Of a stretch of DNA of 64,000 nucleotides, positions 15,451 through 60,702 are shown piece after piece (positions within the stretch are counted from its first letter, which is position 1; every line of letters begins with the position of its first letter). Origin of the DNA: a virus. The notes beneath the pieces are model-generated. The model did not search any database. It saw only the letters and a list, made by a program, of their open reading frames with translations, and was not told where the DNA came from. The stretch spans positions 1 to 64,000 of the IMG/VR virus record IMGVR_UViG_3300042887_002641. One strand, given 5' to 3'. The translations under genes were made by a program, and so were the position numbers.

Positions 15451-15454
15451 AAAT

Positions 15455-28882: not shown

Positions 28883-29710
28883 ATGAATACAATATTTATC
28901 CCCGTTTACCCAAAACCATCTGGCGCAAATGTGACGCAACTTTGCGTTGATTTTAACGCATTTGACCCTCATGATGGAATTAGATTTTCAGTCGTAATGA
29001 AAAATCCTGAAGGATTAGTTTTAGATAAAACTTTTACTAATCTTGCGGGAGATGACTGGCAAGATTGGCCCCCTGAGCAAACAGCCGCAGCAGATTATAA
29101 TTATGTAAAAAATGTAGTATTACAAAACTTAGGATATACTGAAGCAGTCGCTCCATACTTTACTACTCAGCCTGAAAATTTAAAAGTTCTTAGTGGTTCT
29201 CCCGCTGTATTTACTGTAGTAGCTTCTGGAGATGCTCCTATTTCTTATCAATGGTATAAGAATCAAGAACTTATTTCAGGAGCAAATTTAGAAGTTCTTA
29301 CTATAAATTCAGTCTCCGAAACTAATATAGGAACCTATTATGTAAAAGCTCAAAACCCTGTAGGAAGTACAAATAGTAATTTAGCTTCATTGAATACTTT
29401 TGTAGCTCCATTTATCTTATCGAATCCAAGTGACTTATCTATGCCTTCTGGAGCAAACGCATATTTCTCTGCTGTATTTGATGGAGATCAACCAATTACT
29501 ATTGAGTGGTTTAAAGACGATCAATCTATTCCAGATTCTAATTCCTCTCAGTATGTCATAAGTGGAGTCACACAAGATAATGTAGGATTCTATAAAGCAA
29601 AAGCTACTAATATAGCTGGATCAATAGAAACATCTGAAGCAAGTCTCTCTATTATTGAACCAACTCCTCCAACTCCTCCTGAGCCAGTTCCAACGGGAAT
29701 TATGCCTTAA
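28883..29710 (+). CDS. Virion surface protein with two Ig-like domains
   Basis: The 275-residue protein has an N-terminal ~90-residue beta domain of unknown type (VYPKPSGANVTQLCVDF; Trp-rich stretch at about 58-63). Two I-set-type Ig-like domains follow. The first runs about 92-172, with PENLKVLSGSPAVF, ISYQWYKNQ and the closing IGTYYVKAQNPVG. The second runs about 174-257, with PSDLSMPSGANAYF, ITIEWFKDDQ and VGFYKAKATNIAGS. Both keep the core Trp and the Tyr of the F strand but lack the Cys pair. The C-terminus is a Pro-rich tail. Such domains decorate phage capsids and tails and can bind host surfaces weakly. The gene has its own promoter-like element and is closed by a terminator, ending the fibre cassette. 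Confidence 0.8.
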   Translation: MNTIFIPVYPKPSGANVTQLCVDFNAFDPHDGIRFSVVMKNPEGLVLDKTFTNLAGDDWQDWPPEQTAAADYNYVKNVVLQNLGYTEAVAPYFTTQPENLKVLSGSPAVFTVVASGDAPISYQWYKNQELISGANLEVLTINSVSETNIGTYYVKAQNPVGSTNSNLASLNTFVAPFILSNPSDLSMPSGANAYFSAVFDGDQPITIEWFKDDQSIPDSNSSQYVISGVTQDNVGFYKAKATNIAGSIETSEASLSIIEPTPPTPPEPVPTGIMP

Positions 29711-37606: not shown

Positions 37607-40600
37607 ATGGCTACATCAGCAGGAAATATTCCCATTTCAGCGACATTTGCTGCCGCGCAACTTGAAAAAGATGTGTTGTCGGCGTTGAACCGTATCCAGA
37701 GCAAGAGTAATCTTTCTCTAAATACAAGAAATTTTTCTCAACCACTGGGTAAAATTACTGGTTTAGCTAATGAATTCCAAAAGTCTTTGGAAGCTTCAAA
37801 TGCCCGTGTAGTCGCATTCGGAGCTTCTGCTGGTCTTATTTTTGCAGTTCAAAAGTCATTTTCCTCTTTAGTAAATACTACTATCGAAGTAGAAAAGTCT
37901 CTTACTGATATCAATGTAGTATTAAATACATCTTCTAAGGGTATCAAGCAATTTGGAGATCAGTTATTTAGTGTAGCAAAAAATACTGGATCGGCTTTTA
38001 AAGATGTAGCCAGTGCTGCAACAGAATTTTCAAGACAAGGTTTGGGATTAGAAGAGACATTAAAGAGAACAAGAGATGCTCTTATCTTAACTCGTCTTTC
38101 TGGTCTTGATGTCGTTTCTAGTACTGAGGCTCTTACTGCTGCTGTAAACTCATTTACAAAAGAAGCTCTCACTACAACTGATGTAGTAAATAAGTTAGCC
38201 GCCGTTGACGCTAAATTCGCAGTTAGTTCTAGAGACTTGTCCGAAGCTATTCAGCGTGTAGGTTCTTCAGCCAGCGAAGCTGGAGTTAGTTTTGATGAAT
38301 TGTTAGGTATTGTTACTTCTGTTCAGCAAACAACTGCCCGTGGTGGTGCTGTAATCGGTAACGCTTTAAAGACTATTTTTACAAGAATAGAAAGACCTCA
38401 AGTTATCAGTGATTTGAAAGACTTTGGTATTGCTGTTACTGATATTTCAGGAAATGCTTTGCCAACGATTAAAGTTATTGAAAACTTGGCTCAGTCATTT
38501 CAAAATTTAAATCCTGTTATTAAATCTCAAGTTGCTGAACTTGTTGGTGGTGTTTATCAAATTAACATTTTAAAAGCGGCATTAGCAGACGTATCAAAAC
38601 AAAATTCTGCATTCGCAGAAGCTACAAGAACTTCCTCTAAGGCAGCAGACGAAGCTATCTTAAAGAATAAAGCATTAAACGAAAGTCTTTCTGCTTTGCT
38701 TAATGAAACAACTATTAATTTTACAAAATTTGCTACCTCAATTGGAGAAGCAAGCGTTGGACCCGGAATTAGAAAAGTTTTGGGCTATATTAATTCAAGC
38801 TTAGAGTCTTACAATGAAAAAGACGCAGAGGGAGTTGGCGAAAAAATTGCGACTGGTGTATTAAGTGGTGTTACTAATTTTATAACTGGTCCCGGTTTAG
38901 GTATTGGAGCGTTTGCAATTGGAAAACTATTAGCTAACTTTACTAAATTCGCTGGAGATGCAACTAAAAATCTTTTGGGACTTAATACTCTTGGAAGACA
39001 ACAAGCTGTTTTACAATCAGAAATTGGTAAAATTCTTTCTGATAATCCCGATCTAATTAAAGACATTATTTCTGGATCTAGAACTCGCTTGCAAGTAGAG
39101 CAGCAAATAAAACAAACTCTTATAGAACAAGCTGCTTTAGCAGAACAGATTAAAAATTCTTCTATTGATATAGGCGGTAGATTTTTAGCTTCAGGCTTAA
39201 GAGTTTCTGAAAAGAATACTATTGTTGGAAGAAGAAGCGCAGAAGGGTATATTCCAGCTAAACAGCAAGCCGCAGAGATGGTTGGAGCTATGCAAGGTGG
39301 TTATACTCCCGGTAGAGTAGTTGCTGCTCCAAAGTCAATTGGCGGAATAATGAATACTGCCGAAACAGTTAAATATATTCCCGGTTTCGCTCAACCTTAT
39401 ATTCTTCCTCCTCAAGGATCTCGCGCAGCAACTCAATTAGCTTCAAAATCCATGGCTAAAAATGGAATTAATCCTTACATGGCTAAAGGATTCATTCCTA
39501 ATTTTGCTCCAAAACCTTTAACCAATCCTTCTTATGGAGATAATGATTGGTGGCTTGGGTCTGGTCTATCTGCTCCCGTTTCTCTTTCTCAAATTACAAC
39601 TGGAACATCGGCAGCTTGGAGTCAAGATAAAGGTTTTTATAAAACTGATGGTTCTGCTTTTACTGCAAATGATTTAAATACATTTGTGAGAAGAGGGGCT
39701 ACTTATGGAGACATTAGAAAGTATGTTCCAGATAGTCTTTTAAAAGATGATCCAAGATGGAAATCTGGAGCTATATCAGATTTAAACGCTATTAGACGCG
39801 ACTTTGCACCCGGAAAGAAAATAGCAGGTCAAGAAAATATCAAAGAAGGAATTAAGCAAGTTTATGATCCTTATGTTCCTCCTGCTTCAATGCTTGTATT
39901 TGATTTAGATGCAAAAAATAAGGAACTATTTGCAGATGAAAAGACCGAAGAAATATTAACTAAGAGAAAAGAAGACGGAAGAGCTTTTAAGATTAAATCT
40001 TATGCTTTAAATTCGTCTTCTCAAAACGAAGAAAAAACTAATCTAATTACACAAACAGCAGATTTCTCTCGCAGAACAACAAAACAAATTGCTAATTATA
40101 TTAGACCCGGAGAATATTCGGATGCTTCTGTTGATGAATTTTTTAATAAGGCAGGTAAAAATTATTCTGTTCTTGCTGGTACTATTTTTGAAGCTTCTAC
40201 TAATTTAGCCGCTAATTACACAAGAGATCAATCTGGTGGTGGTGTTGGAGATTTTGACGTAATTGGGGGAAATATTGGAAATGTAAGACAGTTTTTCCCC
40301 GGATTTGGAGATCAATATGGAGATTATAAATTAAGAAATAATGATGATGCTGTAAGATCGTTTATTGGTAAAGTTAAGAAGAAATTCGGCCTACAAATGG
40401 CAGAGCATTTTAAGGCTCAAGAAAAAAAGGTAAGTCAACTTAGTACTGGATTTTCAAAAGGTTTTATACCAAATTTTGCTCAAAAAGACTTTCAAACAGT
40501 AAATACTGCTAGATTAATGGGAATTAATTTAGCACAAATGGATATTAATCCCGAAACAGTATTTAGAGAGTCTTTGCAAAACGCTGTCGCTCACGGTCAA

Positions 40601-43600
40601 TCAGGACAAGAAAAGGGAGTTTTCATTGGAGTAAGCGGATATGGAAAGCCAAATGAGTTTGCAATTAGTGATGTTGGCACTGGAATGTCTCCAGAAGATG
40701 TATTCACTAAATTTTTACCATATGCTCAAACAGGAAATGAAGGAGGTAATAAAGGATTATCTGGATTTGGAATGGGAAAAGCTTCTATTTTCATGGGTTC
40801 CAAGAAGTTCCTTCTTGATACTATAAAAGAAATAAATGGTAGAAAGATAAGAACAATTGTTTCTGGAACCCCAGAAGGATGGAATAATTTCATACAAAAG
40901 GGCAAAATAAGTTTAGATGAAACTCTTTTTAATCAACCAAGAGGTGATTTAAATTTTGATGGGTTAAAAATGTTTTGGAGAGAAGTCAATCCAGAAAAAA
41001 AGAATACTCCAATAATGGGAACCACTTTCGCTGCTTCTCCTTCTAAAGAGGGTTATATATCTTATGGAAGTTATTTAGAGAATAGAGCAGGAAAAGTAGC
41101 AGAACTTCCATTTAAATTTACTACTGCTTCTTCTGGTTTATTGAGGCAAACAATTAATACTAGAAATGAAGATCCTAGCTATAGAAAATATTATTTTTCT
41201 AAATTTGATCCTAGTAAATCTTCAGTACAAAGAACTTTAACGGCAGAAGGTGGAGAAGTAGATATATTGTTTGATCCTCAAGGAGATCCTCAAAAAACTT
41301 ATGGATACGCTCAGATTCCCATGCTGTCAGAGGGAATGAAGTATGCTAACTATAAAGTAGAAGGAGTAGACTATATTCCTAAAAGTTTAATGTTTAATGT
41401 TAGGAGTAATGTTGGTGCAGGTGATCCAAATTATCCTTGGAATACTGACAGAACTGAGTTAAGAGGGCCATTAGGCAAAATGGCAAAATCTGCCGTACAG
41501 GATTTAGCTGCACAATTAAAACGCGCTCAAGAAGATAGCGTTAGGAATGTCCCTTCTTATCAAATGGGTTCTGATCTTGAGCTTCTTGATGTTTCTTCTT
41601 CTTTGCCTAAAGGAACAATGGAGAGTATTGCTGGAAATCCTAAATTCCAAAATTTTGGTGCTGCTTTAAAAAGCGTTTTTGAACAAACAATTGGACAGGC
41701 TTCTGAGATTTTTGATCCAAGAATGGCTAATGCTTCATTTAGAGGTTTAGCTGTTGGAGCTAATTGGATGGGTTTAAATACTGCTTCATCAAAAGAAGTA
41801 GGTACGAAATCTATAGTTGAACCATTTGCTCATGTAGAGACAGTTATAGATAGAATTAGAAAGATTTCTCAAGAAAAAGCTAAACAAGGAAAGAAAATAA
41901 AATCAGTTGGTAAATTTAGAGACATCTATTCTAGAGAAATATTAGATACTGTTTTTCATGAAGCCGCTCACCAAGTTAATAGAACAGAAGGAGAAGCTCA
42001 TGCTAAATCAATGGCAAGCGTTTGGGCAGCTAACGCAGAGCAAGTGGGTTCTTATTTAAAAGAAATTCAAGGTTCTCTGACTCCCGAGTTGATGAACTTC
42101 ATCATTTCTACTTATAAGCAAAACAAATCTATTATTGATGAGGGCAAAGCTTCAAAGTTTAGAGATTTCGTATCTAATTATTCATCGGGTCATATTCCTA
42201 ACTTTGCTAGAATGCAATTAGGAAAACCCGGATTTTTTGGAACATTTTCTGCATTAAGAGGAAATCTAGGAGTAAAACAATTCCCAGATAACGAATCATC
42301 TACAAAATCTAATGTAGCAAATGAATACTTAGCTTCACAAGAACTTGGCCAGATGATTGATGCAGAACAATTAAACCCAATTTTTGAAACTCCTAAGATT
42401 TACGGAGCATTGTCAAAAGCTATACAAAAGAGTGCTATTTATAAAGAGATTTTTTCTGGAAAAACAGCACAAGAAATTTCTGAAAATTTAGACGAATATA
42501 CTGGAGAAAGAAGAGGATTTGTCCAACTCGCAGAAATCATAGCCGACAGAGCTACTTCTCAAATTAATGCAGGAGGTAGAATGGAGGCAGTTGATTTAAC
42601 TCAAAACCTTGGCAATATGATGTATAATCAAGTAGCTGAAGGTATCTTGTCGAAGATTTCTAGAAGAAATTATGAGAAATTACTAAAGTCTATTGAATCA
42701 AAAGACAACAAAGATGCAGAAGCTCAAATTGACAGAATTTTAAGCTCTATTTTTACTAAAGGTGGTAAAGTTAGTATAGTTGATACAGGAATGTTTAATC
42801 TAGGAAGCGGCCTAGCTTCTAAGAGAAAATCTTCTTTAGGTAGTCTCGGATACGAAGATGATTTTAGATTTGCTTCAGGTTATATTCCTAATTTTAATCC
42901 AGTTATGGAGGCAATGAATAGAGAGATGTCTGCTGGATATTCTGCTTCTCAGGTTAGATTAGGTAGAAGCGATAAATTAAAGACTAGCTTCAATCCAATG
43001 GGATTGGGTGTTTATAATTCTACAGAAGGATCTCTTAATAATGGAATTGGCTTGGCAGAGAAAGCTGGAATAGACCCTAAGACAAAAGGAATGTCTGCAA
43101 GAGGACATATTCCTAATTTTGCTGAGTTTGGGGGCGCAGATGCTTTTATATTAATTGCTGCTTTTGGAACTCTTAGTACTGCTTTAAAAGAAGTTGCAGG
43201 AAGCCTTAGAACTTTAAAAGGTAGTTCTGATACTTTAATTAAATCAAATGCTTCTGCTGCCGCTTCTTATTCTCAACAGATAGGACAAATACCAAAAGAC
43301 TTCAAAAAGAGTCAAAAAGCAATATCCGATGAGATTGAAAGAACATTTACAAATGTAAATAAAACGACTTTAAAGCTTCAAGGCACTGCTACTGGTCCTT
43401 TAGTAGGGAAAACAACTAGAGATCAATTTGGTATTGTTACAAGCTCTCCTGTTGCTGCGTCTCCAGAACAAGTAGCTAGATTAGAAGAGTTAAGAAAACA
43501 ACAATCTGAACTAAGAAAAAAAGCAAGAGAAGAATTATCTGCTGCTAGAGAAGGACGAAGACAAGCGCAAGAAAATATAAGACAGGCTCAAGCTCCTGTA

Positions 43601-46600
43601 TTTTCAAGAGCAAGTTTTGCGTCTGGAGGGCAAGCAGATAGATACGTTAGAGGGCTTGGCACTCAAATTGGTTTAATTGGTAGTGTAGCTTCAAATATTG
43701 GTGGACAATTCATATCTCCAGAAAATAAAACAGGAAGAGCCGCAGCTTCTGGCTTAGGAGACATAGCTTCTTTTGCTGGCTTAGGGGCACAGTTTGGCCC
43801 TTACGGAGCAATAGCAGGAGTAATTTTAGGAGCTGGATCTGCTCTTATTAAATTAAAAGATGCCAAAGCTGAAGAGGCTATTGATAAAATTAATAAATCT
43901 TTGGGAGAGACAAAAGAAAGATCTGCTGAGTTTTCTGGTGCCGCTCAAAATTACTCTACTTCTTTAGAAGGTTTACAAAACGCTTTAAATGATCCTAAGA
44001 CAAAGCCTGAAGCACTATTAAAGTTTCAAAATAATTTAACAGAAGCTTTAAATAGTATTCCTGAACAGTTCAGAAGTAAAGTGTTAGCCGCAGGGACGGA
44101 GATAAGTAAGGTTACTGAAGCTATTGGTGAAGTAAATAAAGAAATGGCCAATACGCAAAAGAATTTAGAGCGACAATTAGCTATCACGCAATTTATTGAA
44201 AAGCAATCTTCTTTTTTGGGTAGAAGTAGTTTAAAGCCAAAAGATCAAGAAGTGTTTAATAGATTATTCACCTCTTCTATTAGATCAGAAGATATAACTA
44301 AAAAATTTACTGGAGAAAATGCCGCAGCAGACTTTTCTAAATTTATTGATTCTTTAAAATCTCAAGCAATTATTTATAGTCAAGAGACTATTGGGCCTTA
44401 TGGTTCCCGCATAGGCGCACAACCAATGGTTAATAAAGAGAGCGTAGAAAATATAAAAGCTCAGTTAAAACAGAATACAGTTATTCCTGAAGAAATAATT
44501 GATCAGCTTGACAAAGCTTTTGCTGAATTTGATACTGTAGCATTAAGTTCTTTATTCGACTCGCTCAAAAAAGCAGGAATAGACGTTTTTGATTTCGCCA
44601 AAAGATCGAAAAACCTTGGAGAAATTTTAGCAGAAAACACTAAGAGACTTAAAGAAAATGAAGAAGTTCTTAAATCTTTAAATTCTCAATACAATAGCAT
44701 CAATCTTCAAATCTCTAATCAAATTGATATAGAAAAAAATCGCGCTCAAACTATTAGAGAGATAAATAAAATTCAAGCAGAAGGCGCGGTTTCAATCCAA
44801 AGAGCTAGAGTTAAAGGTCTTTTAGAATCAGCTACTCCATTTATTAGCGAGTCTTCAAAATCGGACATCCAAAATCAATTAGATCTAAATGAGATAACTT
44901 CTAGACAAAATTCTAAAATTCAAGAGGCTTCTAATAAACTTTTAGATTCTTTCTCAAATACGATAATTAAAAAATCAGAAGAAGCTAGATCAAAAGTTAT
45001 TCCTGCTATTGAGGGTGCCAAGTCTGAAAATGCTATTCAACAAGAAAGAGCCGTCTTCCAAAATCAAATTCAGAAATTAACTCCTTTAATTGCTGAATCA
45101 TTAAAACAAATAAATTCTGGTGGTAATATAGGAGATATACAAACAAATTTAATAAATAACATAAGAGGATTTTCTCAATTCAAGCCAGAAGAAAGAGATG
45201 TTCTTGTGCAAACTCTTGAAGTATCTTTTGGAGAGTTTCAAAATACTCTCGCCGAAATAAAAGCTCAAGGCGATATAGATATTCAAATTCAAGAAGCCCA
45301 AAGAGAATATCAAAAACAGTCTTTGGAGCTAAATCAAAGACTTTCTTTTGCTGGTGGCGCACAAGCTTTGAGTTCCACTGGTAAAGCGGGGGTTTCTGAA
45401 CTTTTTGATAATATTTCTGAATTAGTTTCAGAATTTAGACAAACTAACGTTGCTGGAAATGCTGCTCAAAGGGGATCTAGTGCTTTTAAATTGCTTGATG
45501 TATTAACTAATCAATTACAATTAAATAGAAGCATTGGTCAACCAAGCGGATTCATTGGACCCAGTGCCAGTGGAAGTGCTTTTAATAATCAAGTGTCTTC
45601 TGATTTAAATCCTTTGGTAGGAACAGCTATTGCTGGCAGAGTGCAGCAAATAAGAGAAAGCGTAGATTTAGCTCGCAGAGTTACTGAAATTCAAATGGGT
45701 AAACCAACAGCCGGTACTGCTTTAGGAACGGCTTTTGACCAAGCAAAAGAAGGCGCAGTTAAAACTGCTTTAGATCAAATTACTTCTCAGTTTAAGTTAG
45801 AGAATATGGGGAACTATCTTGACGTATTACAACAAGAAGCTAGATTCTTAAATGACCTAACACAAGATCAAAATTCTATTTTAGAAAAAACATTGCCAAC
45901 TACTATAAATGAGAACTTTAATAGAGTTATAACAGAACAAGTAGGCAGCAAATTAGATAGCTTAACTACTTCATTACAGGGAGTTATTAACAAATTAGGA
46001 GTTGCTACAAAAAGAAACGCTCTTGAATCCGAAATGTTTAATAAGCTTCCTGCTGACGTATCTCCAGCAGATAGACAAGCAATATTGAATAGAATAGCTG
46101 CGTCACAAAATTTAAGAGATACAGAAGGGTCCATATCTATGCAGACTAACAACGCCGAAGCAGGAATAAGACTAGCAAGAGAAAAAGAGATTAAAAAATT
46201 ACAAGATTATTTTAAGAGTTTTGATTTAGTAACAGTAACCGGAGCAGAAGGAGCTTTTACAGAAGCTTATAAAAATTTAATTGGAGATCCATCTAAAGTT
46301 TCAAGAGATGATTATGGGAATATTACTGGAGGTGTTAGCTATGGAAAAGGCTATTACGGGACTGGTACTTCTAGAGAAACTATAAATAATGCAGTTGTGT
46401 TGCAGGAAGATCTAGGCTCTTCCTATGAAGATCAATTAAGAAATCAAAAAAGATTAGAGCAATTAATCGCTTCACGCGAAAAATCAATTGGTCGTCCAGA
46501 GATTAACCTCTCAGGAACCTATAAAGGATTAACTCAAGATATAAATAGAGATTTTAAAGTCTCTATGGCAGAGGAGACTGTAAAGTCTATTAAATCTGCA

Positions 46601-48478
46601 CAAGAAGAGTTAAGAAGATTAGACTCGGCTTCTCCTTTAATGTCAGTAGGCAATAAATCAACTGCGCCTTCTTTACAAGATATCATTGATAAATATGGTT
46701 TAGCAGATCAAGGCGGTGCTAAAAGAAATTTACCAACTCAATTAGCTCAAGGAAGAGCAAATCTAGATAGTATCAATAATTTGCTTTTGGCTAGATTAGA
46801 AAATGATAAACAGCTTGTCGATCTTAACGAAAAAGTAAATAACCTTTTAAAAGAAGACCTAAATGATACAAAGAAAAGAGAAGACCTAATTAAACTTCAG
46901 ACTGAGCTAAGAAAGAAAACTTTAGAGCAAGAAGGTAAGGTCGCAGAAGAGTTGTATAATTTATATTACAAAGGTTCGTTTGGAGAAACTTTCTTTAAGG
47001 ATGAAAGAGCGGCTTTTGCTAATGCTAGAATTGAAAATGAAGCTCGTCAAGGAAGAGTAGCTATTGGAGCTATAACAGAAAAAAATACTACTTACAATAG
47101 AGCCGATTTTGCTAGAGATACTGGTCAATTGATCGACACTTTCCAAACTGATTTCAAATCAGGTATTGCTAGTGCATTTGGTGAAGCTATCAAAGGAACT
47201 AAAACTCTTAAGGATGCATTTAGAGATATGTTCCAAGGCATCTTAAATAGAATGCTTGATAAGTCTTTAGAGATGGGAGTTGATGCTTTATTTGCTTTTG
47301 GTAAAGCTGCAACTGGCAGAAAAGATGGTGGATTAATCAGAGGTTATAATTCTGGAGGTATGGTTGTTGGTGGCTCTGGAATGAAAGATGATGTACCCGC
47401 TATGATGAGTGGCGGCGAATACGTTATCAAGAAGTCTTCTGTTAAAAAATACGGTTCTGATTATTTAAGAGCCTTGAATGGCGGACTTGTTCCCAAATAT
47501 GCAGTAGGTGGGTTCTCAATGGGTCCATTACAAAATGAGTTCTTATATGATAATCCTGATCGTCCAACTTCTGGGGAGTTTGCTGTTGATTCTAGACTAT
47601 CAGCCGCAGCTTTAACTGACGAGAATAATCCTCAAAATAGATTAAGACAAGATCGCTATGAAAAACTTGATCAATACTTGCAAGACAGATCGCAGTATGA
47701 GAAAGACAAACAGCAAGCTATTAAAAATTACAAAAATCAAGTAAATAGCACTTTCTATTCAGGTTTAACTGCTGCTGCTGTTCAATTAGGTGCTGCTGGT
47801 CTTACGGTTGGAGCAGCTAATATGAGAACTAATGCAGCAACATCTGCTGCAAGAGGTCTAGAACCCGGAGGCAACTTAACTCAAGCTCAATTAAACGCTC
47901 AATATGCAAGAAATCTTAGGTCAAATGGCGGCTATATAGCTAGATTTGCTGGCGGTGGATCAACAGGTAAAGATAATATTCCTGCCTTGTTAATGGGCGG
48001 CGAATATGTCATGAACAAGAAAGCTGTAGATATGTACGGCAGAGACTTCATGAATCAATTGAATACTGGTACATTGCCTAAGTATGCCAGCGGAGGAATG
48101 GTTGGTACAAGTTATACAGCAGGTCAAAATACTCCTGAATCTAGCGTGACCGAACTAGTCGCTGCTCTTAATACATTGAATGAAAACCTTTCCAAGGGCA
48201 ATGACATCACCCAAGCTGAGTCAGGTAAAATTTCTGCTGCTGGAGCAAATCAAGAATCTGGAATGTCTGTAGTTAATAACATTTCAATTAATGTTGCTCA
48301 AAGCGGCGAAGTCACTTCTGAAGCTAATGCTACCACTCAAAATGGTGGCTCCAATACTAATAAAGATCAGAACAATATTCAAAACAATGCTAAACTCGCT
48401 GAACTACTCAGAAGCAAAGTCGTTGAAGTATTGGTCGAGCAGAAGAGACCCGGAGGATTACTTTACGCCAGCAGATAA
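37607..48478 (+). CDS. Giant tail tape measure protein with internal enzyme-like domain array
   Basis: The protein has 3,623 residues. Residues ~40-340 match the TP901-type tape measure core (VVAFGASAGLIFAVQKSF, EAIQRVGSSASEAGVSFDEL, IGNALKTIFTRIERP). Hydrophobic Gly-rich segments lie at ~414-445, 1841-1865, 2046-2082 and 3381-3406. Five GxIPNF(A/N) motifs start at 628, 952, 1528, 1758 and 1833. Between them are a PD-(D/E)XK-like segment (Glu862, Asp882, DYK 906-908), a GHKL-type ATPase (ESLQN 988-992, DVGTGM 1022-1027, GFGMG 1053-1057), an HExxH zinc-peptidase-like segment (HEAAH 1451-1455, Glu1463) and a possible kinase-like segment. Residues ~1900-3230 are long coiled coils. Two GGEYV(I/M) modules close the C-terminus. 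The coiled coil sets tail length; the array may be delivered into the cell. The gene's 3' end overlaps the converging minus-strand gene by 21 bases. Confidence 0.88.
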   Translation: MATSAGNIPISATFAAAQLEKDVLSALNRIQSKSNLSLNTRNFSQPLGKITGLANEFQKSLEASNARVVAFGASAGLIFAVQKSFSSLVNTTIEVEKSLTDINVVLNTSSKGIKQFGDQLFSVAKNTGSAFKDVASAATEFSRQGLGLEETLKRTRDALILTRLSGLDVVSSTEALTAAVNSFTKEALTTTDVVNKLAAVDAKFAVSSRDLSEAIQRVGSSASEAGVSFDELLGIVTSVQQTTARGGAVIGNALKTIFTRIERPQVISDLKDFGIAVTDISGNALPTIKVIENLAQSFQNLNPVIKSQVAELVGGVYQINILKAALADVSKQNSAFAEATRTSSKAADEAILKNKALNESLSALLNETTINFTKFATSIGEASVGPGIRKVLGYINSSLESYNEKDAEGVGEKIATGVLSGVTNFITGPGLGIGAFAIGKLLANFTKFAGDATKNLLGLNTLGRQQAVLQSEIGKILSDNPDLIKDIISGSRTRLQVEQQIKQTLIEQAALAEQIKNSSIDIGGRFLASGLRVSEKNTIVGRRSAEGYIPAKQQAAEMVGAMQGGYTPGRVVAAPKSIGGIMNTAETVKYIPGFAQPYILPPQGSRAATQLASKSMAKNGINPYMAKGFIPNFAPKPLTNPSYGDNDWWLGSGLSAPVSLSQITTGTSAAWSQDKGFYKTDGSAFTANDLNTFVRRGATYGDIRKYVPDSLLKDDPRWKSGAISDLNAIRRDFAPGKKIAGQENIKEGIKQVYDPYVPPASMLVFDLDAKNKELFADEKTEEILTKRKEDGRAFKIKSYALNSSSQNEEKTNLITQTADFSRRTTKQIANYIRPGEYSDASVDEFFNKAGKNYSVLAGTIFEASTNLAANYTRDQSGGGVGDFDVIGGNIGNVRQFFPGFGDQYGDYKLRNNDDAVRSFIGKVKKKFGLQMAEHFKAQEKKVSQLSTGFSKGFIPNFAQKDFQTVNTARLMGINLAQMDINPETVFRESLQNAVAHGQSGQEKGVFIGVSGYGKPNEFAISDVGTGMSPEDVFTKFLPYAQTGNEGGNKGLSGFGMGKASIFMGSKKFLLDTIKEINGRKIRTIVSGTPEGWNNFIQKGKISLDETLFNQPRGDLNFDGLKMFWREVNPEKKNTPIMGTTFAASPSKEGYISYGSYLENRAGKVAELPFKFTTASSGLLRQTINTRNEDPSYRKYYFSKFDPSKSSVQRTLTAEGGEVDILFDPQGDPQKTYGYAQIPMLSEGMKYANYKVEGVDYIPKSLMFNVRSNVGAGDPNYPWNTDRTELRGPLGKMAKSAVQDLAAQLKRAQEDSVRNVPSYQMGSDLELLDVSSSLPKGTMESIAGNPKFQNFGAALKSVFEQTIGQASEIFDPRMANASFRGLAVGANWMGLNTASSKEVGTKSIVEPFAHVETVIDRIRKISQEKAKQGKKIKSVGKFRDIYSREILDTVFHEAAHQVNRTEGEAHAKSMASVWAANAEQVGSYLKEIQGSLTPELMNFIISTYKQNKSIIDEGKASKFRDFVSNYSSGHIPNFARMQLGKPGFFGTFSALRGNLGVKQFPDNESSTKSNVANEYLASQELGQMIDAEQLNPIFETPKIYGALSKAIQKSAIYKEIFSGKTAQEISENLDEYTGERRGFVQLAEIIADRATSQINAGGRMEAVDLTQNLGNMMYNQVAEGILSKISRRNYEKLLKSIESKDNKDAEAQIDRILSSIFTKGGKVSIVDTGMFNLGSGLASKRKSSLGSLGYEDDFRFASGYIPNFNPVMEAMNREMSAGYSASQVRLGRSDKLKTSFNPMGLGVYNSTEGSLNNGIGLAEKAGIDPKTKGMSARGHIPNFAEFGGADAFILIAAFGTLSTALKEVAGSLRTLKGSSDTLIKSNASAAASYSQQIGQIPKDFKKSQKAISDEIERTFTNVNKTTLKLQGTATGPLVGKTTRDQFGIVTSSPVAASPEQVARLEELRKQQSELRKKAREELSAAREGRRQAQENIRQAQAPVFSRASFASGGQADRYVRGLGTQIGLIGSVASNIGGQFISPENKTGRAAASGLGDIASFAGLGAQFGPYGAIAGVILGAGSALIKLKDAKAEEAIDKINKSLGETKERSAEFSGAAQNYSTSLEGLQNALNDPKTKPEALLKFQNNLTEALNSIPEQFRSKVLAAGTEISKVTEAIGEVNKEMANTQKNLERQLAITQFIEKQSSFLGRSSLKPKDQEVFNRLFTSSIRSEDITKKFTGENAAADFSKFIDSLKSQAIIYSQETIGPYGSRIGAQPMVNKESVENIKAQLKQNTVIPEEIIDQLDKAFAEFDTVALSSLFDSLKKAGIDVFDFAKRSKNLGEILAENTKRLKENEEVLKSLNSQYNSINLQISNQIDIEKNRAQTIREINKIQAEGAVSIQRARVKGLLESATPFISESSKSDIQNQLDLNEITSRQNSKIQEASNKLLDSFSNTIIKKSEEARSKVIPAIEGAKSENAIQQERAVFQNQIQKLTPLIAESLKQINSGGNIGDIQTNLINNIRGFSQFKPEERDVLVQTLEVSFGEFQNTLAEIKAQGDIDIQIQEAQREYQKQSLELNQRLSFAGGAQALSSTGKAGVSELFDNISELVSEFRQTNVAGNAAQRGSSAFKLLDVLTNQLQLNRSIGQPSGFIGPSASGSAFNNQVSSDLNPLVGTAIAGRVQQIRESVDLARRVTEIQMGKPTAGTALGTAFDQAKEGAVKTALDQITSQFKLENMGNYLDVLQQEARFLNDLTQDQNSILEKTLPTTINENFNRVITEQVGSKLDSLTTSLQGVINKLGVATKRNALESEMFNKLPADVSPADRQAILNRIAASQNLRDTEGSISMQTNNAEAGIRLAREKEIKKLQDYFKSFDLVTVTGAEGAFTEAYKNLIGDPSKVSRDDYGNITGGVSYGKGYYGTGTSRETINNAVVLQEDLGSSYEDQLRNQKRLEQLIASREKSIGRPEINLSGTYKGLTQDINRDFKVSMAEETVKSIKSAQEELRRLDSASPLMSVGNKSTAPSLQDIIDKYGLADQGGAKRNLPTQLAQGRANLDSINNLLLARLENDKQLVDLNEKVNNLLKEDLNDTKKREDLIKLQTELRKKTLEQEGKVAEELYNLYYKGSFGETFFKDERAAFANARIENEARQGRVAIGAITEKNTTYNRADFARDTGQLIDTFQTDFKSGIASAFGEAIKGTKTLKDAFRDMFQGILNRMLDKSLEMGVDALFAFGKAATGRKDGGLIRGYNSGGMVVGGSGMKDDVPAMMSGGEYVIKKSSVKKYGSDYLRALNGGLVPKYAVGGFSMGPLQNEFLYDNPDRPTSGEFAVDSRLSAAALTDENNPQNRLRQDRYEKLDQYLQDRSQYEKDKQQAIKNYKNQVNSTFYSGLTAAAVQLGAAGLTVGAANMRTNAATSAARGLEPGGNLTQAQLNAQYARNLRSNGGYIARFAGGGSTGKDNIPALLMGGEYVMNKKAVDMYGRDFMNQLNTGTLPKYASGGMVGTSYTAGQNTPESSVTELVAALNTLNENLSKGNDITQAESGKISAAGANQESGMSVVNNISINVAQSGEVTSEANATTQNGGSNTNKDQNNIQNNAKLAELLRSKVVEVLVEQKRPGGLLYASR
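40130..40420 (+). other. PD-(D/E)XK nuclease-like segment inside the tape measure
   Basis: Residues about 842-938 of the tape measure read IFEAS with Glu862, then GDFDVIG with Asp882 and Asp884, then GDYKLRN with Asp906 and Lys908. Order and spacing (E ... D ... 22-24 residues ... DxK) fit the active-site core of the PD-(D/E)XK superfamily. It lies between IPNFA motifs 1 and 2. Confidence 0.5.
40520..41500 (+). other. GHKL/MORC-like ATPase segment inside the tape measure
   Basis: Residues about 972-1298 contain the N-box ESLQNA (Glu988, Asn992), the DxGxGM box (Asp1022) and the glycine lid GFGMGKAS (1053-1060), in the order and spacing of Hsp90, MutL and MORC ATPases. A downstream beta and helix part (about 1130-1298, with FMFNVRS-like strands and TDRTELRGPLG) may be the transducer region. 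Confidence 0.68.
41830..42170 (+). other. HExxH metallopeptidase-like segment inside the tape measure
   Basis: Residues about 1408-1522 form helices around HEAAHQVN (His1451, Glu1452, His1455) and GEAHA with Glu1463 eight residues after the second His. This fits a compact gluzincin-like zinc site, as seen in peptidase domains of phage polyvalent proteins. It ends just before IPNFA motif 3. Confidence 0.5.
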
Positions 48479-49285
48479 TTCTTTAATCTTAGAATCTATA
48501 GTTAGTATAGCCTGATTATAGATTTGCTCTATATTGTTGTCTTTGGCTAATGGTAGATTAAGAAAAGGAGTCTTGTCTACCTTTACAATGAAGGCTTGAT
48601 TCAGGTATTCCTTGCCCGTAGCCTTATTTAATGTAATGCGGTATCGTTTTATATAGACTTCTCCTGTAAGGAAGTCGTCTTTAATCTTTTCATTTAACAT
48701 TACAAGAGTAGAAGCGTTTTCTCGCTTTACGTCCAATACAGAAAAAAACTTAAGAGCCTTCTTGTTGTCTTTACCCAAAATCAAGCTTACTTTTGCGCCT
48801 TTACCAGATCCGCCTTCTAATTCTGCTTCAGTAAAATTTTGAGTAAATTTTCCATTGTTAATTAAATGGAGTTCAGTAATACCGCCATCACTATTGACAG
48901 CTTTAATTTGAAGGACAGCTTTTTGGTTTTTATCTATGGACGATTCAAAGTAAGAATTTTTACCAATAGTTACATATTCATTTACTTTGTATCCAGATCC
49001 AGATTCAGTAATGTCATTAATTAATGCAGCATAGTAAAGAGCAAAATAGCAATCAATAGTGTCTCCATCTAAGATTAAATCTTTAATTGTGCCGCTAAAT
49101 TTAATTAATAAACTTGATTCTACAGTAAAAGGCTTGCTGTAGTTAATGACGGCAGTTCGCACAACAGAGAACTTCTCTGGGTTGCCAATAATTTCTATTT
49201 CTTTACTGGGTTCTATTGTAGACCAGTTTGCTAGGTTGTTAGAATATATGTATTCGTCGCCAAAAGAAAATAATACATCCGTCAT
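48458..49285 (-). CDS. Small tail-tip protein with GxGY beta repeat
   Basis: The 275-residue protein is last gene of the minus-strand block. The N-terminal ~90 residues are beta-rich (TVESSLLIKFSGTIK). Residues 92-175 contain GSGYKVNEYVTIG at 96-108, SDGGITELHLINNG and GGSGKGAKVSL. This matches the GxGYtxxPtVxI/GGxVxxIxVxxxG repeat common in tail proteins of marine phages. The last 45 residues form a helix (NNIEQIYNQAILTIDSKIKEL) like the tail-assembly segments at the ends of fibre-associated proteins. Its 3' end overlaps the tape measure 3' end by 21 bases, head to head. It may be a fibre or tip cap. Confidence 0.6.
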   Translation of the reverse strand: MTDVLFSFGDEYIYSNNLANWSTIEPSKEIEIIGNPEKFSVVRTAVINYSKPFTVESSLLIKFSGTIKDLILDGDTIDCYFALYYAALINDITESGSGYKVNEYVTIGKNSYFESSIDKNQKAVLQIKAVNSDGGITELHLINNGKFTQNFTEAELEGGSGKGAKVSLILGKDNKKALKFFSVLDVKRENASTLVMLNEKIKDDFLTGEVYIKRYRITLNKATGKEYLNQAFIVKVDKTPFLNLPLAKDNNIEQIYNQAILTIDSKIKELSAGVK

Positions 49286-49288
49286 ATG

Positions 49289-49987
49289 TTACATTATATT
49301 GCCAATCACTGCTTTTACAATAGGATGTTTTGCGCTTTCTGATTCATATCCACTTATTTTAATCTCTGGATCTGAAATATAACCACAACCTAATTTCTCC
49401 ATTGTTAAAGAAAGTAGCTCTCCTTTTGAGCCTCTAACAGCATGAGCAGAAGCGGTTAAGCCGTAGTTGTATTCGGTTTCTTCAGGAGGAGAGATGGTGA
49501 CGCAAGGAACAGGTTCTGAGCATCCATATCCGGGGTCAATAATTTGTATATCAACAATATTATGAAAGGCGTTAAACTTGTTTATCTTTTCGCAATCATG
49601 AATGTGTTGCATTTCAGTTCTACAAGAGAGTTCTCTTAGAAACTTTTTGTTATTTTTAATGACTTCTGTTTGTTTATTGTTGGGAGTCTCTAGAGAGATA
49701 ATGAAGTCAATATCAAGCTTCTGCAATAAAGTGTTTCTTTTTGCAGTCATTTCTTTAACTTTTTTATCAATGAGATTTTCTTTTTTCCATATAGAGTTTC
49801 CATCAGGAAGAAATTTTCTATGTTCTAATATGCTTTGGTCAATGTGTTTTTCTAAAGGTACAATGTAGTCTACAACTTCATACTCTATTCCTACAAGCTT
49901 TAGGCGATCTAAATTTTCCATCAAGTCGAGAGAAGATTGGAGGTATTTGTGACTGCCATTTATAAAATATACGATGTAGTGTTTCAT
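49289..49987 (-). CDS. Tail assembly chaperone-like protein with GxGY beta domain
   Basis: The 232-residue protein follows the tip attachment gene by one base. Residues about 1-65 are a small alpha/beta part (HYIVYFINGSHKYLQSSL). Residues 81-125 read AKRNTLLQKLDIDFIISLE, continuing to KKFLREL. This is like the phage tail assembly chaperone motif, in which RxxLLxxxD is followed about 30 residues later by Arg-rich helix ends. Residues 144-228 carry GYGC at 153-156 and two GxGY/GxGI-type beta repeats. It may chaperone or cap the tip protein or a fibre. The fold reading is tentative. Confidence 0.55.
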   Translation of the reverse strand: MKHYIVYFINGSHKYLQSSLDLMENLDRLKLVGIEYEVVDYIVPLEKHIDQSILEHRKFLPDGNSIWKKENLIDKKVKEMTAKRNTLLQKLDIDFIISLETPNNKQTEVIKNNKKFLRELSCRTEMQHIHDCEKINKFNAFHNIVDIQIIDPGYGCSEPVPCVTISPPEETEYNYGLTASAHAVRGSKGELLSLTMEKLGCGYISDPEIKISGYESESAKHPIVKAVIGNIM

Positions 49988-49988
49988 T

Positions 49989-52900
49989 TTAGTAAGTTAT
50001 TACTACTGATAGTTCTAGTGCTTGGATATGGAAATTATATAATGGAAATGATCTATTGTTAGATCTTGCGGACAAATGTGCAAAAGCTAAGTTTTTAGCA
50101 CTCTTGAATTTCCAGAAAGTTGGATTAGTTATTGATGCATCAGCAGAATAAGAAGAAGCGTTGGCGTAATAATTTGCATAAGGAACATTTTTTAATGTAA
50201 CCTTAATTATGTTATCGTCTCCCGGTATTATTTGGGTTTTATCTACTTCACTAGCTACAAAATCTTCTCCAATAAAGCAATATACCTTTATAGCTTTTGT
50301 TTTGTTGACGCTTCCAATTGTAAAGAAAATAGACAAAGATTCATTTTCTAATACTGGAACTCCAGCATAGAAAGAAGAATTTGCTATACCAAAATTAAAC
50401 GAATTAGCTGTTTGCTGATTTATAGTATAAACAGTGAAATTGTTTGGTTCTGCATTTATCAACATTTGAACATTTTTAGTATTGACTCCAAGTTCAGAAA
50501 AGTTGTTTTCAGGAGTAACGTTTATAGCATTGAAAGATGAATTGAGCAATCCATCATTTAATAAACTATTAAAATTGCTTTTTGCATTTTCTTCAGTGTT
50601 TGAATTTGAGGCGTTTATAGGAATTAAATAAGTATTTGTATAATCAGGAATTAAACTCTTTATATTTCCAGTAAACGTGCTATTAGTTAATCTTGTTATA
50701 GAGATGTCGAAAAACTCTTCGTTTCCTTCGCCAAAAGAGCTATTTGTTATTTTAGCTTTAGACTTAAAAGCATTAGCTGTTTCTGATTCTACTGCTCTTA
50801 AAGAAACAGTATTTGCGTCAGGAACTAAAGCTCTTGTAAAAATTTTATTGCCATTTAAAACATAAGCTCTCTTGCCAGTGGGTATTTTCGGTGATAATGA
50901 TGCATTTGGTATATTATCTCTATTTTGTAAAGAGAGTTTGTAATAAGCCATAGTGCCGTCTGGATCTGAAGATAATACTCTATCATCTTTAGCTCCTGCT
51001 GCTAGGTTTGCGTTTGTAGTAGGCTTATAAATTACGCTCTTTCTAGAAATTGCATAAGCTGGTGAAGGGAGCGTATTTACGCTAGTATCAAATATATTTT
51101 CAGTTAGTACAGTTTTATTAATTGTAAAATGGAGATATCTAGTATCAGCATCTTTTAATACAGACTCTAGAGAGAAAGATAATGGAGTAGATGATTCTTG
51201 TTTTATAACAATTGGGTCACTAATTTGAGGGTAAATTTTACCTATGTTATTATCTTTATCAATGAAAGAAGAATAATAGTCTAAGATATTTCTTGCTGTT
51301 GCTGCATTTGAGTTAAACTGCCAAGCGAACATGAATGAATCTACAGCTATCAAATAAGCATTATATTGAGTAGAATCAAATCCCTTACCGTTGTCATCGC
51401 TTAAGTCATTGAAATTAAATATAGATTGGTTATTTGATATTGTTATAAAGTGAGAGTCAATGATTTCTTTTCCAGTATTATCGTTAACAGACAATGGGCT
51501 TCCATCAGGATTGTGATTTATTGAATTTTTTCCAAATTCAAATATATTTTCACTAGGCATTAGTAATAGATAAAAAGCGTTAATAAAAGAACTCGCTGTA
51601 TCTTGCTGAATAGTAAATTTTAATCTATTTGATCCTTGGCTTGTAACAATAGAGTAGGTCGCTCTTGTGTCTTTTAAAATTGCATTTAAAGATTTTTTTA
51701 AATCAGCATCTTGATTGTCGTAAGTTACTAGTAAAAATCCATCTACATTCTTAAAATCATTAGAAGTAGATTTCATTCCAACATCTGTAAATGTCATTTT
51801 ATCAATTGCCAAAGAGAAGTTCCTATACTTAGCAAAAACATTTGAAGTTTTGTAGTTGTATATATTGTCACTAGTTTGATCTTCATCAAACGTTAAATAG
51901 TCTTCCCAGTTTGAAACATTAAGGTACTTGTTGTAAACAGTGCCGAAAGCGTCTTTTGTGTCTACTTTCTCTGGTATTATTGCTATTCTATAAGGGTAAT
52001 CAAGATTGTTGAATTTATTTGGATTCTTTATGAATTGCAAGGGGATGTTGAACGATAAAGACTCTGGAGGTTTAACAGATTGAATTTGAGAAGGTGCTGT
52101 TGACTGAAAGTATTGTGCTTTCGTTAAATCAATTGGAGAGGTAAAAGCATAAACTTTATTATTCAAAGTGATAGATGAACTTGTATTTACATCGTCATAA
52201 GTAATCGCAACAACTGGAGAGACAAATAATTCATTTGAGTTTTGAGAATTTGAAGCTTCAACATAAGTTAATGGAGAGCTATTATTAATATTTGCTCCAT
52301 AAATTCTTATAGAACCTTTGATGTTGCTCTTGTCTAGAACAGTGTTTACATAAGATTCATAAATATCGATTGGAACAAATTTAAAATCACTAGAGCTATT
52401 TGGGTTAAAGTCTGATCCATAAAAGGCTTTGTTAAATATCTTGAAGCCTATCGTAGTGTCTTTTATAGAAGAGTCATAAAAGATTTCAATCAATACTTTG
52501 CTTTGATCTATTACTCCATTAGCCTCTGCAACGCCAAGAGTAAATAATGCTCTTGAAGGCGCAGAAGCTTCTGGTGCTGGTGGTTTTGCTGGTGTGATAT
52601 TTAATCCAGATTCTATTTGAGCATACTTTAAGTGATACATCTGCGAGCCAATTACTGTATAATTACTTCCCTCTGTAGACTCTTGTATTCTAAATACTCT
52701 ATAAAAATCATAATCGCTATCAGTAGATCCATTAAGGTTTCCAGAGTTTTCTAAAGCCCAAGTTATTGATTTAGGAGACATTCCAGACGCTCCAGTAAAA
52801 TAAGATAGTCCAGTTACGTTTAATCCAGAAGCCATTACTGGTGCTAGACCCGTAATTCTAATTGAATCATAATATTGACCAGTAATTAAGTTGCCGCTTC

Positions 52901-55900
52901 CTACTATGAATGAATTAGTAAGAGGCTTTCTATAATCATTATAATCAAGGTTACTAGTAACGATACTGTCTCCTGCTGCGTCTTTAAAGCTAGGATCTAG
53001 ATTATACTTGGGAGAAAGTATGGTTAGCTTATAATTTTGATTTCCAGAAAAGTTAAAATCAAGTTTTCTATCTAGAGTTAGTATTCCAGTAGTTACATTT
53101 GTGTCTCCAGAAATGTTAATATTATTTAATCTTCCGCCTACTGTTTTATATTTTCTATTGTAATCGTAAACTTTAATTACGTCTCCGGGTTTTAAGTATA
53201 CGCACTCTGGACCAGCTTCAAAAGAAACTGTTTCTGTTTCATTGTATTCTGAAGCTAATAACCACCTGCCAAGTCTTTGAGCTTGACCTCTGCTTGTGCA
53301 TCCAAAGGCGGTTAATTCAGTTTCTTTAAAACCAAATTTCCTGACAGCCTCAATATTTTCTACATATTCTACTGCTGGTTTATAAAAATTATTCTTATCA
53401 ATATATCTAATATAGACTACAGAATTTCTATCTTTTAATGATGTAGATTCGTAAGTAAAATTACCATCAGATACATTTGAATTAGTGAAAGAATAAATAG
53501 GGGTATCTTCTGGCATATCATTTATGGCGTAAATGAATCCATTTGAATAATAGAACATTCCCCTAAATACAGAAGCCATATCAGACAACACTTTAAGAGC
53601 ATCGTCTTGTGTTTGTAAATAAACATTACATGTAAATCTTGGTTCTACTCCTCCAAATCCATCTGAAACAAGTTCATCGCAATATTTAGCTATTTGATAA
53701 AGAGACCATTTGTCTACGTCATTTTCTGTGACATAGTTACCTACTCCATATCTTTTGTTTGTTAAAAGATCGTAGAAGCACCAAGCTGGATTGTCCGTCC
53801 ATTCTTTTTCAGTTTTAAATTCTCCATCCCAATAATCATTTGATGTAGAATAAGGTAAAACTCCTGCTGCATCATAAACAGTGGTTTTTCTAGAAAGACC
53901 TTCTGAGAAAAGATTTCTTGCAAATGCTTTAGACAAAGAAAGTCTATCAAAATCAATTTGATTTACTCTAATAGAATCAGCATAGCCTTCTATTTTGCCG
54001 CCGAAACCAGCGGGTGATGTAAAGATTTCTATTTGATTATTATTAGTTATGAAATAAGAAGGAATAAAAGGTCCAGTTTTTGTATTTACTGCGTCGTAAA
54101 TTTGTCCAGCAGCAAGAGGAATAAGTACTTTAATTTCACTCTGAGAAGAGCTTAAACTTACTGAAGTAGAAGAACCGTCAAATGTTTTATGGTATTCCTG
54201 TTTATTGTAGGTATTTAAGGCTTCTTGAGCAAGTGGAGCTATCTGTGCCCTTTGATTTATTTCATTTTGCCAAACAGGATCTGTAGCGGGTCTATATAAA
54301 GCTCCAACACAAAGAGTTTGATAAGCAGCGTAATTTGAAATATTTATATTGCATTGAATCTGCTTTTCTAGGTTAACTAGAACGTCTATTTCTGCATTCA
54401 ATATGTCTGGGAAGTATTCTTTAGTAAGTCTTCTTTCAATAACAGGAACAAAAGTTGAAGACCTTCCTCCTGTCTGTTGTGAGGCTGCATTAAAATTGCA
54501 GTATATATATTTATAACAAGTTTCTGGTAAGTTATTAATATTGCTACTGTACGAAGTATCTTCTTTAAAGCTTACTGCTTTTACTAAATAAAAATCTTTT
54601 AGTTCTTGCGCTAATGCTCTTTCGTTTCCGTCAGCCGTTGCTCTTCTGACTGTTATATAGTCATTAGTCCAAGTCCTATCTGATATATTTATGTTATTTA
54701 CTTTGCTTGCGTTTGTGGTGTACGATATGCTTGGTTTTACTACTTTTGGAAGTATATAAAAACTAATTCTTGTGAAATTTTCTTTAAGTTTGGTTGTCGA
54801 ATATTTCGCTGGATCTAGGGCTTTTGTTATGGTGTAATTTTTGCTTTCATTTGGAGAAATAACTGTAAGTATTAGACTTACGTTTTCTCCAGATATAGTC
54901 ATAGAAAGATTAAACTGATTACTTCTATGAATTAGAGTATAATTTCCGTCTCCAATGCTTCCTAGTTTAATAAAGAAATCGCAATAAAAACTGCAAAATC
55001 CTTGATCTTTTAAAGAAAAGTTTTGTGGGGTTTTCCAATTTTTCCAATATCTCTGAGGTATTAAATCAAATTCATAATAATCCGAAGTAGCCAAACTGCC
55101 TCCAGCATAACTATAAGCCTTTGTTCTTTGTCCATTGGCGCATAGAGTTTTAAGAGGCATCTTCAAATAAGTGTTTGATGCTACATTAAGAACGTTTGTA
55201 TTATATGATCCAGCTACAGATGTAGAGTAAGATAGATTGCTAGAAATTAGATTCCATTTTTTATTTAACCAATTTCTTATCTTGATTCCATCTGATTTTG
55301 ATAAAGCTTTATTGTAAACCAATATTTCAAAAACAGTGCATCTACTTGTACTCGCTGAAGAATTAATAGCTAAACCTTTTGGAGCAGCTACTGCATTTAT
55401 AGGTCTTACAAAGTAGTTAGTATTTTGCCAGAAAATATTTACATCTTTTAAATTGCTTACGCTTGTTCCTACGATATAGGTATTTGTATCATTGGCATCA
55501 TTCCAATAATTAGAACGGTTGAATTGATAAAAATTAACAGGCATTACTCCATAGATTTGACTACCTACTGTAAAAGCATTATTAAATTTACCATCAAACC
55601 CCAAAACAAAAGTATTTTCCAAACTATAAGAAGAAATTATCCTATTCCTTTCTGTGTTGGTTGCGCTGTCGTGCCATTTACAGACAGCAAATACAGTATA
55701 GTTATTACTAGCGTCAGCTAATGGACTTGTTTCGGTTTGGTAAACGAATCTTGCTTTCTGAGTGGTCGTAAATGAAACACCATAAGTTCCATTCGGGCTT
55801 TGCTCTGAATATGTTGATCCGTATGTTGGCTTGTTAGCACTTCCATTTGGAGATGCGTAAGTTCCATTTCCTAAAACGCATTTTATAGTTGATCCAGCTA

Positions 55901-57359: not shown

Positions 57360-57360
57360 T

Positions 57361-60698: not shown

Positions 60699-60702
60699 AG
60701 GA

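Follow-up and report, generated by a model that had tools for sequence, protein, structure and literature searches.

GxIPNF(A/N) peptides bound exchangeable, predicted enzyme cassettes in the tape measure proteins of uncultured tailed phages

Tape measure proteins (TMPs) are usually regarded as rulers and DNA conduits of phage tails. Why, then, should one of them carry in its interior a row of segments with unrelated active-site patterns, separated by copies of nearly the same heptapeptide? The question is raised by the uncultured virus record IMGVR_UViG_3300042887_002641, of which the stretch of 64,000 nucleotides (nt) from position 1 to 64,000 was analysed (hereafter the window). A TMP open reading frame (ORF) of 3,623 amino acids (aa) on its plus strand (37607..48478) contains five motifs of the form GxIPNF(A/N), all of them where a sequence-only reading of the window had placed them: GFIPNFA at aa 628-634 (motif 1, 39488..39508) and aa 952-958 (motif 2, 40460..40480), GHIPNFA at aa 1528-1534 (motif 3, 42188..42208), GYIPNFN at aa 1758-1764 (motif 4, 42878..42898) and again GHIPNFA at aa 1833-1839 (motif 5, 43103..43123). 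Against these five, 5,000 shuffles of the protein gave 0.003 motifs on average and one at most, and the reversed pattern has zero matches, so that chance occurrence is rejected; further copies are absent from both strands of the 74.9-kb record. An assembly artefact is rejected as well, since independent contigs hold the same array (L126 and L127 at 100% identity, L128 at 99.3%); the reading frame is uninterrupted across it.

The motif peptide is the exact edge at which cassettes swap between otherwise near-identical tape measures. Compared with that of the close relative L129, the TMP of the window is 97.4% identical in the N-terminal scaffold ahead of motif 1, 72.8% identical between motifs 1 and 2, 97.7% between motifs 2 and 3, unrelated (42%) between motifs 3 and 4, 96.0% identical between motifs 4 and 5, and 89.2% identical after the array. 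Because identity breaks at the motifs, the two proteins are seen to share a near-clonal backbone in which one cassette has been exchanged and a diverged homologue stands in place of another. The breaks of the exchange lie within motif codons: the blastn alignment stops at 42205 and resumes at 42869, motifs 3 and 4, its left and right breakpoints, starting at 42188 and 42878. In place of the third cassette of the window L129 holds an unrelated, possibly GNAT-like one, and its first cassette shares 95% identity with that of L279, the rest of whose array is different. Further clean swaps, with flanks about 90-99% identical, are seen among others in the pairs L056/L087, L168/L244, L006/L111 and L166/L224.

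The same boundary is found throughout the family. All the sequences compared are uncultured viral contigs retrieved by means of the motif itself. From pairs that are not independent, 1,005 ends of homology blocks were gathered without use of motif positions; 50.6% of them lie at most 15 nt from a motif centre, compared with 6.1% of random positions. The mean per ORF is also 0.50, and therefore the enrichment is not driven by few pairs. Block ends are most frequent at +18 to +21 nt, and block starts at 0 to +1 nt, from the first base of the motif. In fact, this role of the motif as recombination boundary of the cassettes is the strongest fact of the present analysis, and it was absent from the sequence-only reading. 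That reading had asked for a test of whether the stretches between motifs differ between phages; the L129 swap and the family-wide block ends support that they are separate modules which do so. Furthermore, the segments are mutually unrelated, and several of those found in relatives are enzymes beyond doubt. A single continuous fold over aa 628-1840 is rejected, being incompatible with independent replacement of cassettes. The cassettes are under purifying selection, with a median ratio of non-synonymous to synonymous substitution rates of 0.16 in 53 homologous pairs and of about 0.10 for the second segment of the window against L129.

A short sequence at which exchange occurs might be a DNA recombination site. 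This has been rejected: in 648 motifs the codons show a synonymous variety equal to that of the rest of these genes while the peptide is constrained, from which it follows that selection acts on the peptide. The consensus around it is A-[A/S]-x-G-F-[I/V]-P-N-F-A. Scans of uncultured viral contigs returned at least 120 stretches each for GFIPNFA, GYIPNFA and GFVPNFA and 99 for GHIPNFA; the motif marks a family of several hundred TMPs. Nearly all ORFs with at least two motifs place the first one 540-640 aa from the N-terminus; two to eight motifs are typical and their spacing is irregular. A profile of the TMP N-terminus, made from part of these ORFs and independent of the rest, matched 189 of the 189 with at least 400 aa ahead of the first motif, and PhageMin_Tail scored above cut-off in all eight contigs examined separately.

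Inter-motif lengths are bimodal, with linkers of about 54-90 aa and cargo of about 100-1,250 aa, and complete ORFs follow a common plan in which the TMP N-terminus is followed by an often present left linker (82-90 aa), by cargo, by a right linker and by the remaining ruler. Among 76 complete ORFs, 74 hold between one and five cargo segments (one in 41, two in 16, three in nine, four in six, five in two), and the array of the window is among the larger ones. Cargo length is modestly correlated with ruler length (rho 0.44), which does not support a complete decoupling of the two. The right linker is usually of a 75-aa type, RE.aAG..s.IR....L...NP.GL.V.NT.DEP, and otherwise of a second type. In the window the first type (AMNREMSAGYSASQVRLG..NPMGLGVYN.., 42899..43102, plus strand; 115 members) occupies aa 1765-1832, as typically the final segment of an array; the enzyme that had been suspected there is instead this conserved linker, present in most family members. 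The left anchor of the window (aa ~547-627, 39245..39487, plus strand), assigned by position and by eye, has GYIPAK replacing the first motif and appears to be the counterpart of the D1/D3 linkers of 82-90 aa that stand ahead of the cargo in relatives.

The family was found in uncultured viruses. In bacterial genomes only two real arrays were found, both on contigs of metagenome-assembled genomes and probably binned viral DNA. In cultured phages the TMP N-terminus is matched by 143 records, all below 60% identity, and cassettes and linkers are without relatives there, bar a weak GHKL match in Arthrobacter phage Atuin. As to size, a frame of 10,566 aa with 16 motifs lies on the minus strand of L435/L436 (IMGVR_UViG_3300021958_000045, 79,989 bases), about twice the 5,002 aa of the P23-45 TMP; its cassettes are a HAD-like, a CCA-adding enzyme, an ART-like and two nuclease-like ones.

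What the cassettes do is best judged in relatives, some of which offer stronger evidence than the window. From their sequences they are functional proteins, often predicted enzymes. The clearest case is L291, in which a complete CCA-adding enzyme/poly(A) polymerase stands between two GL[VI]PNFA motifs of a 10,566-aa tape measure frame (Pfam 8e-20, NCBIfam 1.4e-52, PDB 3wfo 2e-22), with the catalytic motifs GGxxRD, DxD, RRD and EDxxR all intact. CCA-adding enzymes belong to the Pol-beta nucleotidyltransferases. An SNase exceeds the curated cut-off in L104 (2e-9) and is found again in L374, and several cassettes, that of L190 among them, match GNAT acetyltransferases (best 7e-5). At the level of patterns, the HAD signature (DWDGT/DFDxT) occurs in eight segments of the family and the protein-kinase-like DLHGxN in four, both with none in shuffles, and HExxH occurs in four segments against 0.15 expected; a P-loop (GPAGTGKT), ART-like cassettes (LYRG) and additional zincins were recognised by eye. 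PDB sequence searches of the ART, HAD and kinase-like cases in relatives gave no significant match, and these assignments stay at motif level. One protein of the family combines CCA-adding enzyme, HAD-like, ART-like and nuclease-like cassettes. A further cassette of 668 aa (L052:4163-6166, minus strand) joins a P-loop to a region matching the cytidyltransferase-related HIGH_NTase1_ass above cut-off (6.1e-8). The commonest cargo, nearly universal across arrays, is a segment with the signature E-D-(D/E)xK.

This last type is the first cassette of the window (aa 635-951, 39509..40459, plus strand), a candidate PD-(D/E)xK-like nuclease with its core at aa 858-908 (nt 40178-40330): G858, E862, D884 and D906-x-K908. 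Among 122 domains collected by iterative profile search, the Glu is conserved in 96%, the Asp in 94% and (Asp/Glu)-x-Lys in 100/99%, in the pattern GxxFE...FD...DAK. A partial AlphaFold model (mean predicted local distance difference test score, pLDDT, 72, with about 90 across much of residues 190-310 and predicted disorder in the stretch that follows motif 1) puts E235 in a helix and D257 and D279-K281 in strands, the order seen in PD-(D/E)xK nucleases. The top structure matches were G-protein chains with a TM-score of 0.2 and were dismissed as noise. A nuclease is thus a prediction from motifs: the signature that had suggested one is conserved, while no fold search confirms it.

The second cassette (aa 959-1527) appears to be composite. 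Its N-terminal part (aa 983-1075, 40553..40831, plus strand; Pfam 2.1e-4 / 3.8e-5) bears the N-box RESLQNAVAH, the DVGTG and the GxGxG-type lid GLSGFGMGKAS of a GHKL-type ATPase; together with the HATPase_c_3 match (3.8e-5, under Pfam's curated cut-off) and weak matches to SpoIIAB and histidine-kinase models, these motifs support the GHKL ATPase that had been proposed. In the C-terminal part, the HExxH pattern previously noticed is present as HEAAH at aa 1451-1455 (41957..41971, plus strand), followed by EGEAHA, and makes this region a candidate zincin-type metallopeptidase; phrog_6361 weakly covers aa 1443-1492. The third cassette (aa 1535-1757, 42209..42877, plus strand) aligns to the kinase-like cassette family at 33% identity (E 5e-4), and in the alignment to L120/L059/L029/L049 it keeps K, E and DxG and has QNLGNM instead of the catalytic-loop DLHGxN. 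Of the tentative kinase of the sequence-only reading the likeness stands: the segment is a kinase-like domain with a degenerate catalytic loop, perhaps an inactive one. With the model of segments 2 and 3, the fold search reached only E values above 1, for a histidine-kinase CA domain and a large number of kinases; these matches were not used as evidence.

As regards genomic setting, profile searches show that the window encodes structural proteins of a tailed phage, which is probably siphoviral and of lambda type. The long ruler protein lies amid tail genes and contains a PhageMin_Tail domain at aa 124-310 (37976..38536, plus strand; E 4.6e-28), which together identify it as a tape measure; phrog_4211 (E 1.8e-51) and further TMP families match too. 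The remainder of the protein after the array (aa 1840-3623, 43124..48478, plus strand) ends with two GGEYV..LN.G..PKYA.GG repeats. The genes right after the TMP (48458-61257) are on the minus strand, convergent with it, and include tail-tip-type genes, namely one for a protein of 2,456 aa that carries Phage-tail_3 (49989-57359, minus strand) and one for a minor tail protein L (59577-60698, minus strand; Phage_tail_L 8.6e-36); their counterparts in lambda run in the same direction as the tape measure gene. Elsewhere in the window, two adjoining giant tail-fibre-like proteins of 3,064 and 2,239 aa (6256-22174) both match the repeat families phrog_9942 and phrog_18345, and a protein with two immunoglobulin I-set-type domains (28883-29710; 2.5e-21) resembles Hoc-like decoration proteins. 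A PADLOC search gave no useful result.

How could such arrays work? The reading judged probable here is that the exchangeable enzyme cassettes form a cargo bay in the TMP of a probably lambda-type siphophage and are delivered with the DNA at injection. A fixed N-terminal scaffold is followed by one to five cassettes with GFIPNFA motifs between them, by a conserved closing linker and by the remaining ruler. The cassettes would travel within the tail tube, pass into the host together with the tape measure during DNA injection and act there on DNA, tRNA or proteins of the host during the first minutes, ahead of phage gene expression. TMPs are present in few copies per virion, and few would suffice if the cassettes act as catalysts. 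The motif would work as a peptide in a flexible linker, serving as docking or threading signal, as release site or as both, and the turnover of cassettes would be driven by host-specific needs of defence and takeover. Delivery into the cell is a strong inference by analogy with other siphophages, whose tape measures move out of the tail and into the envelope (PMC10770324, PMC13190303). While lambda injects its DNA, its TMP encounters ManYZ in the inner membrane, being labelled by ManZ, and the defence nuclease SNIPE binds to it (PMC13190303). It is the encounter with ManZ and SNIPE, and the action of a TMP-fused virion RNA polymerase in P23-45, that make delivery plausible.

Several observations weigh against this interpretation. 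For the three cassettes of the window the profile or motif evidence is weak, below that of some relatives. For the fold of the first one, Foldseek searches of PDB and viral structure libraries and searches of PDB sequences and Pfam gave no significant match; the model of segments 2 and 3 has a pLDDT of 32; and the third cassette lacks the Asp and the His of the catalytic loop. Many cassettes of the family match no known family, and the motif family is absent from the collection of cultured phages. Moreover, a tail tube is about 4 nm wide, and folded domains would have to pass unfolded or as small domains.

The motif data themselves are compatible with release, with docking or threading, and with a linker that is simply tolerated. 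That the motif is a structural element, docking to the tube lumen, to a tail assembly chaperone or to neighbouring TMP copies, with cassettes tolerated in between and never released, is a serious possibility, held here at somewhat less than even chances. Every array with enough upstream sequence belongs to a TMP, and the C-terminal part of these proteins holds similar motifs: after the array, the pattern G-x-h-P-x-[FY]-A (GGLVPKYA, GGYIARFA, GTLPKYA) occurs 0.61 times per 1,000 aa in the family, against 0.11 in shuffled sequences, which suggests that the motif may have arisen from a general tape-measure element. In the window, two repeats GGEYV[IM]xKxxVxxYG...LNxGxxPKYAxGG (47330-48110, aa 3242-3500) have ends like GxIPNFA. 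Spacings as irregular as 50 to >1,000 aa would, however, hardly be expected of a motif that touches a helical tube periodically. Proteolytic release, in which a protease of the phage or of the host, or an in-array zincin protease, cuts at or near (A/S)x-GFIPNFA as in a polyprotein, is rather doubtful. It would be consistent with the compact consensus, which has small residues at -3 and -2 (A 37%, A/S 84%) ahead of GFIPNFA and is conserved at the protein level, with the predicted disorder following motif 1, with the HExxH domain in the array and with the metallopeptidase processing proposed for polyvalent proteins (PMC5512222). These features, however, suit a docking motif or a linker equally, and the sequence favours neither; the related C-terminal pattern points to a structural origin; and a possible processing metallopeptidase is found in the window and a few relatives and is absent from most arrays, so that HExxH cannot be the general protease. 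A bolder extension, which we hold tentatively and at less than even chances, is that in a large, uncultured siphophage clade the TMP is a polyprotein-like magazine and GFIPNFA a universal load-and-release signal for any enclosed cassette, the cassettes being packed into the tail, brought into the cytoplasm and freed there, and traded among phages as an anti-defence arsenal.

Two other explanations dispense with delivery. The domains might work in the producing cell or in the virion (in assembly, in TMP maturation or in DNA handling in the tail), and no result places them in a new host cell; nevertheless, a CCA-adding enzyme, a GNAT and an SNase have no evident role in tail assembly, fast turnover of cassettes at one site fits interaction with the host better, and known TMPs reach the envelope (PMC10770324, PMC13190303), all of which makes this improbable. 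It is very improbable that the cassettes are selfish domains akin to inteins or homing endonucleases, invading the TMP gene and spread by the nuclease-like domain. Such an origin would agree with the near universality of that segment and with the phage nucleases known from exchange boundaries (PMC10448857), but no Hint, intein or homing-nuclease family is among the Pfam matches listed, many arrays hold unrelated enzymes (CCA-adding enzyme, GNAT, SNase), and motif codons that vary synonymously offer no fixed DNA target.

Delivery of the cargo with the DNA remains the preferred reading, and the data suggest that the tails of these viruses are loaded with enzymes from a swappable set, to be delivered at infection. 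In a survey of phage protein mosaicism the exchange of TMP parts was suspected and genuine recent cases were not confirmed (PMC10684548); this family is a clear, family-wide case, with a peptide that predicts the exchange sites. By this rule tail-delivered enzymes would be findable from sequence alone, together with a large set of undescribed cargo families. The arrays also raise the question of whether a tail tube can carry a folded enzyme and a short signal release it, and, should the motif prove to be a portable delivery tag, proteins could be loaded by means of it into phage tails or injection particles.

A literature search found no paper describing the motif, and the arrays have to be set against systems known for related features. 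Polyvalent proteins (PMC5512222), to which the sequence-only reading had likened the array, are an apt comparison: they too carry many unrelated activities per polypeptide, with delivery coupled to DNA by inference, and the same enzyme classes recur, namely peptidases, ARTs, protein-kinase-like domains, GNATs and Pol-beta nucleotidyltransferases (ART and kinase being here assigned by motif). The window TMP itself holds, as a polyvalent protein does, at least two unrelated enzymatic domains, by its GHKL (Pfam), nuclease-like, HExxH and kinase-like segments. They differ in that the carrier is here a tail tape measure (the text of PMC5512222 is without the word 'tape') and in that one invariant peptide punctuates the cassettes and marks their exchange boundaries, with conserved linkers at the ends; large polyvalent-associated (LPD) domains are not among the Pfam matches listed for cargo segments. 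In Thermus phage P23-45 (PMC10770324) a catalytic domain is likewise fused N-terminally in a siphophage TMP and proposed to act during DNA entry, but it is a single RNA polymerase of a narrow phage group, without motif array or cassette exchange, and the enzyme types here are others; the Pfam tables hold no polymerase profile, DxDxD not having been specifically searched for. Mycobacteriophage TMP motifs 1-3 (TM4 mt3; PMC1796659) are enzymatic modules within TMPs, present in some relatives only; in contrast to the cassettes they are small, have a peptidoglycan-type activity on the envelope and lack a punctuating peptide. The contractile injection system effectors Sle1 and Tme (PMC13277306) share a variable functional module on a tape-measure-like protein in a tail-like particle, but the module is a C-terminal, dedicated effector of a non-replicating particle, whereas here internal multi-cassette arrays lie in the phage's own TMP. 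Finally, polymorphic toxin systems (PMC3482391) also shuffle enzymatic cassettes behind a constant carrier, but the cassettes described here are internal, bounded by motifs on both sides, several per protein and not only C-terminal. Far from each single precedent, the system is best read as a cassette-built, tail-borne counterpart of polyvalent proteins.

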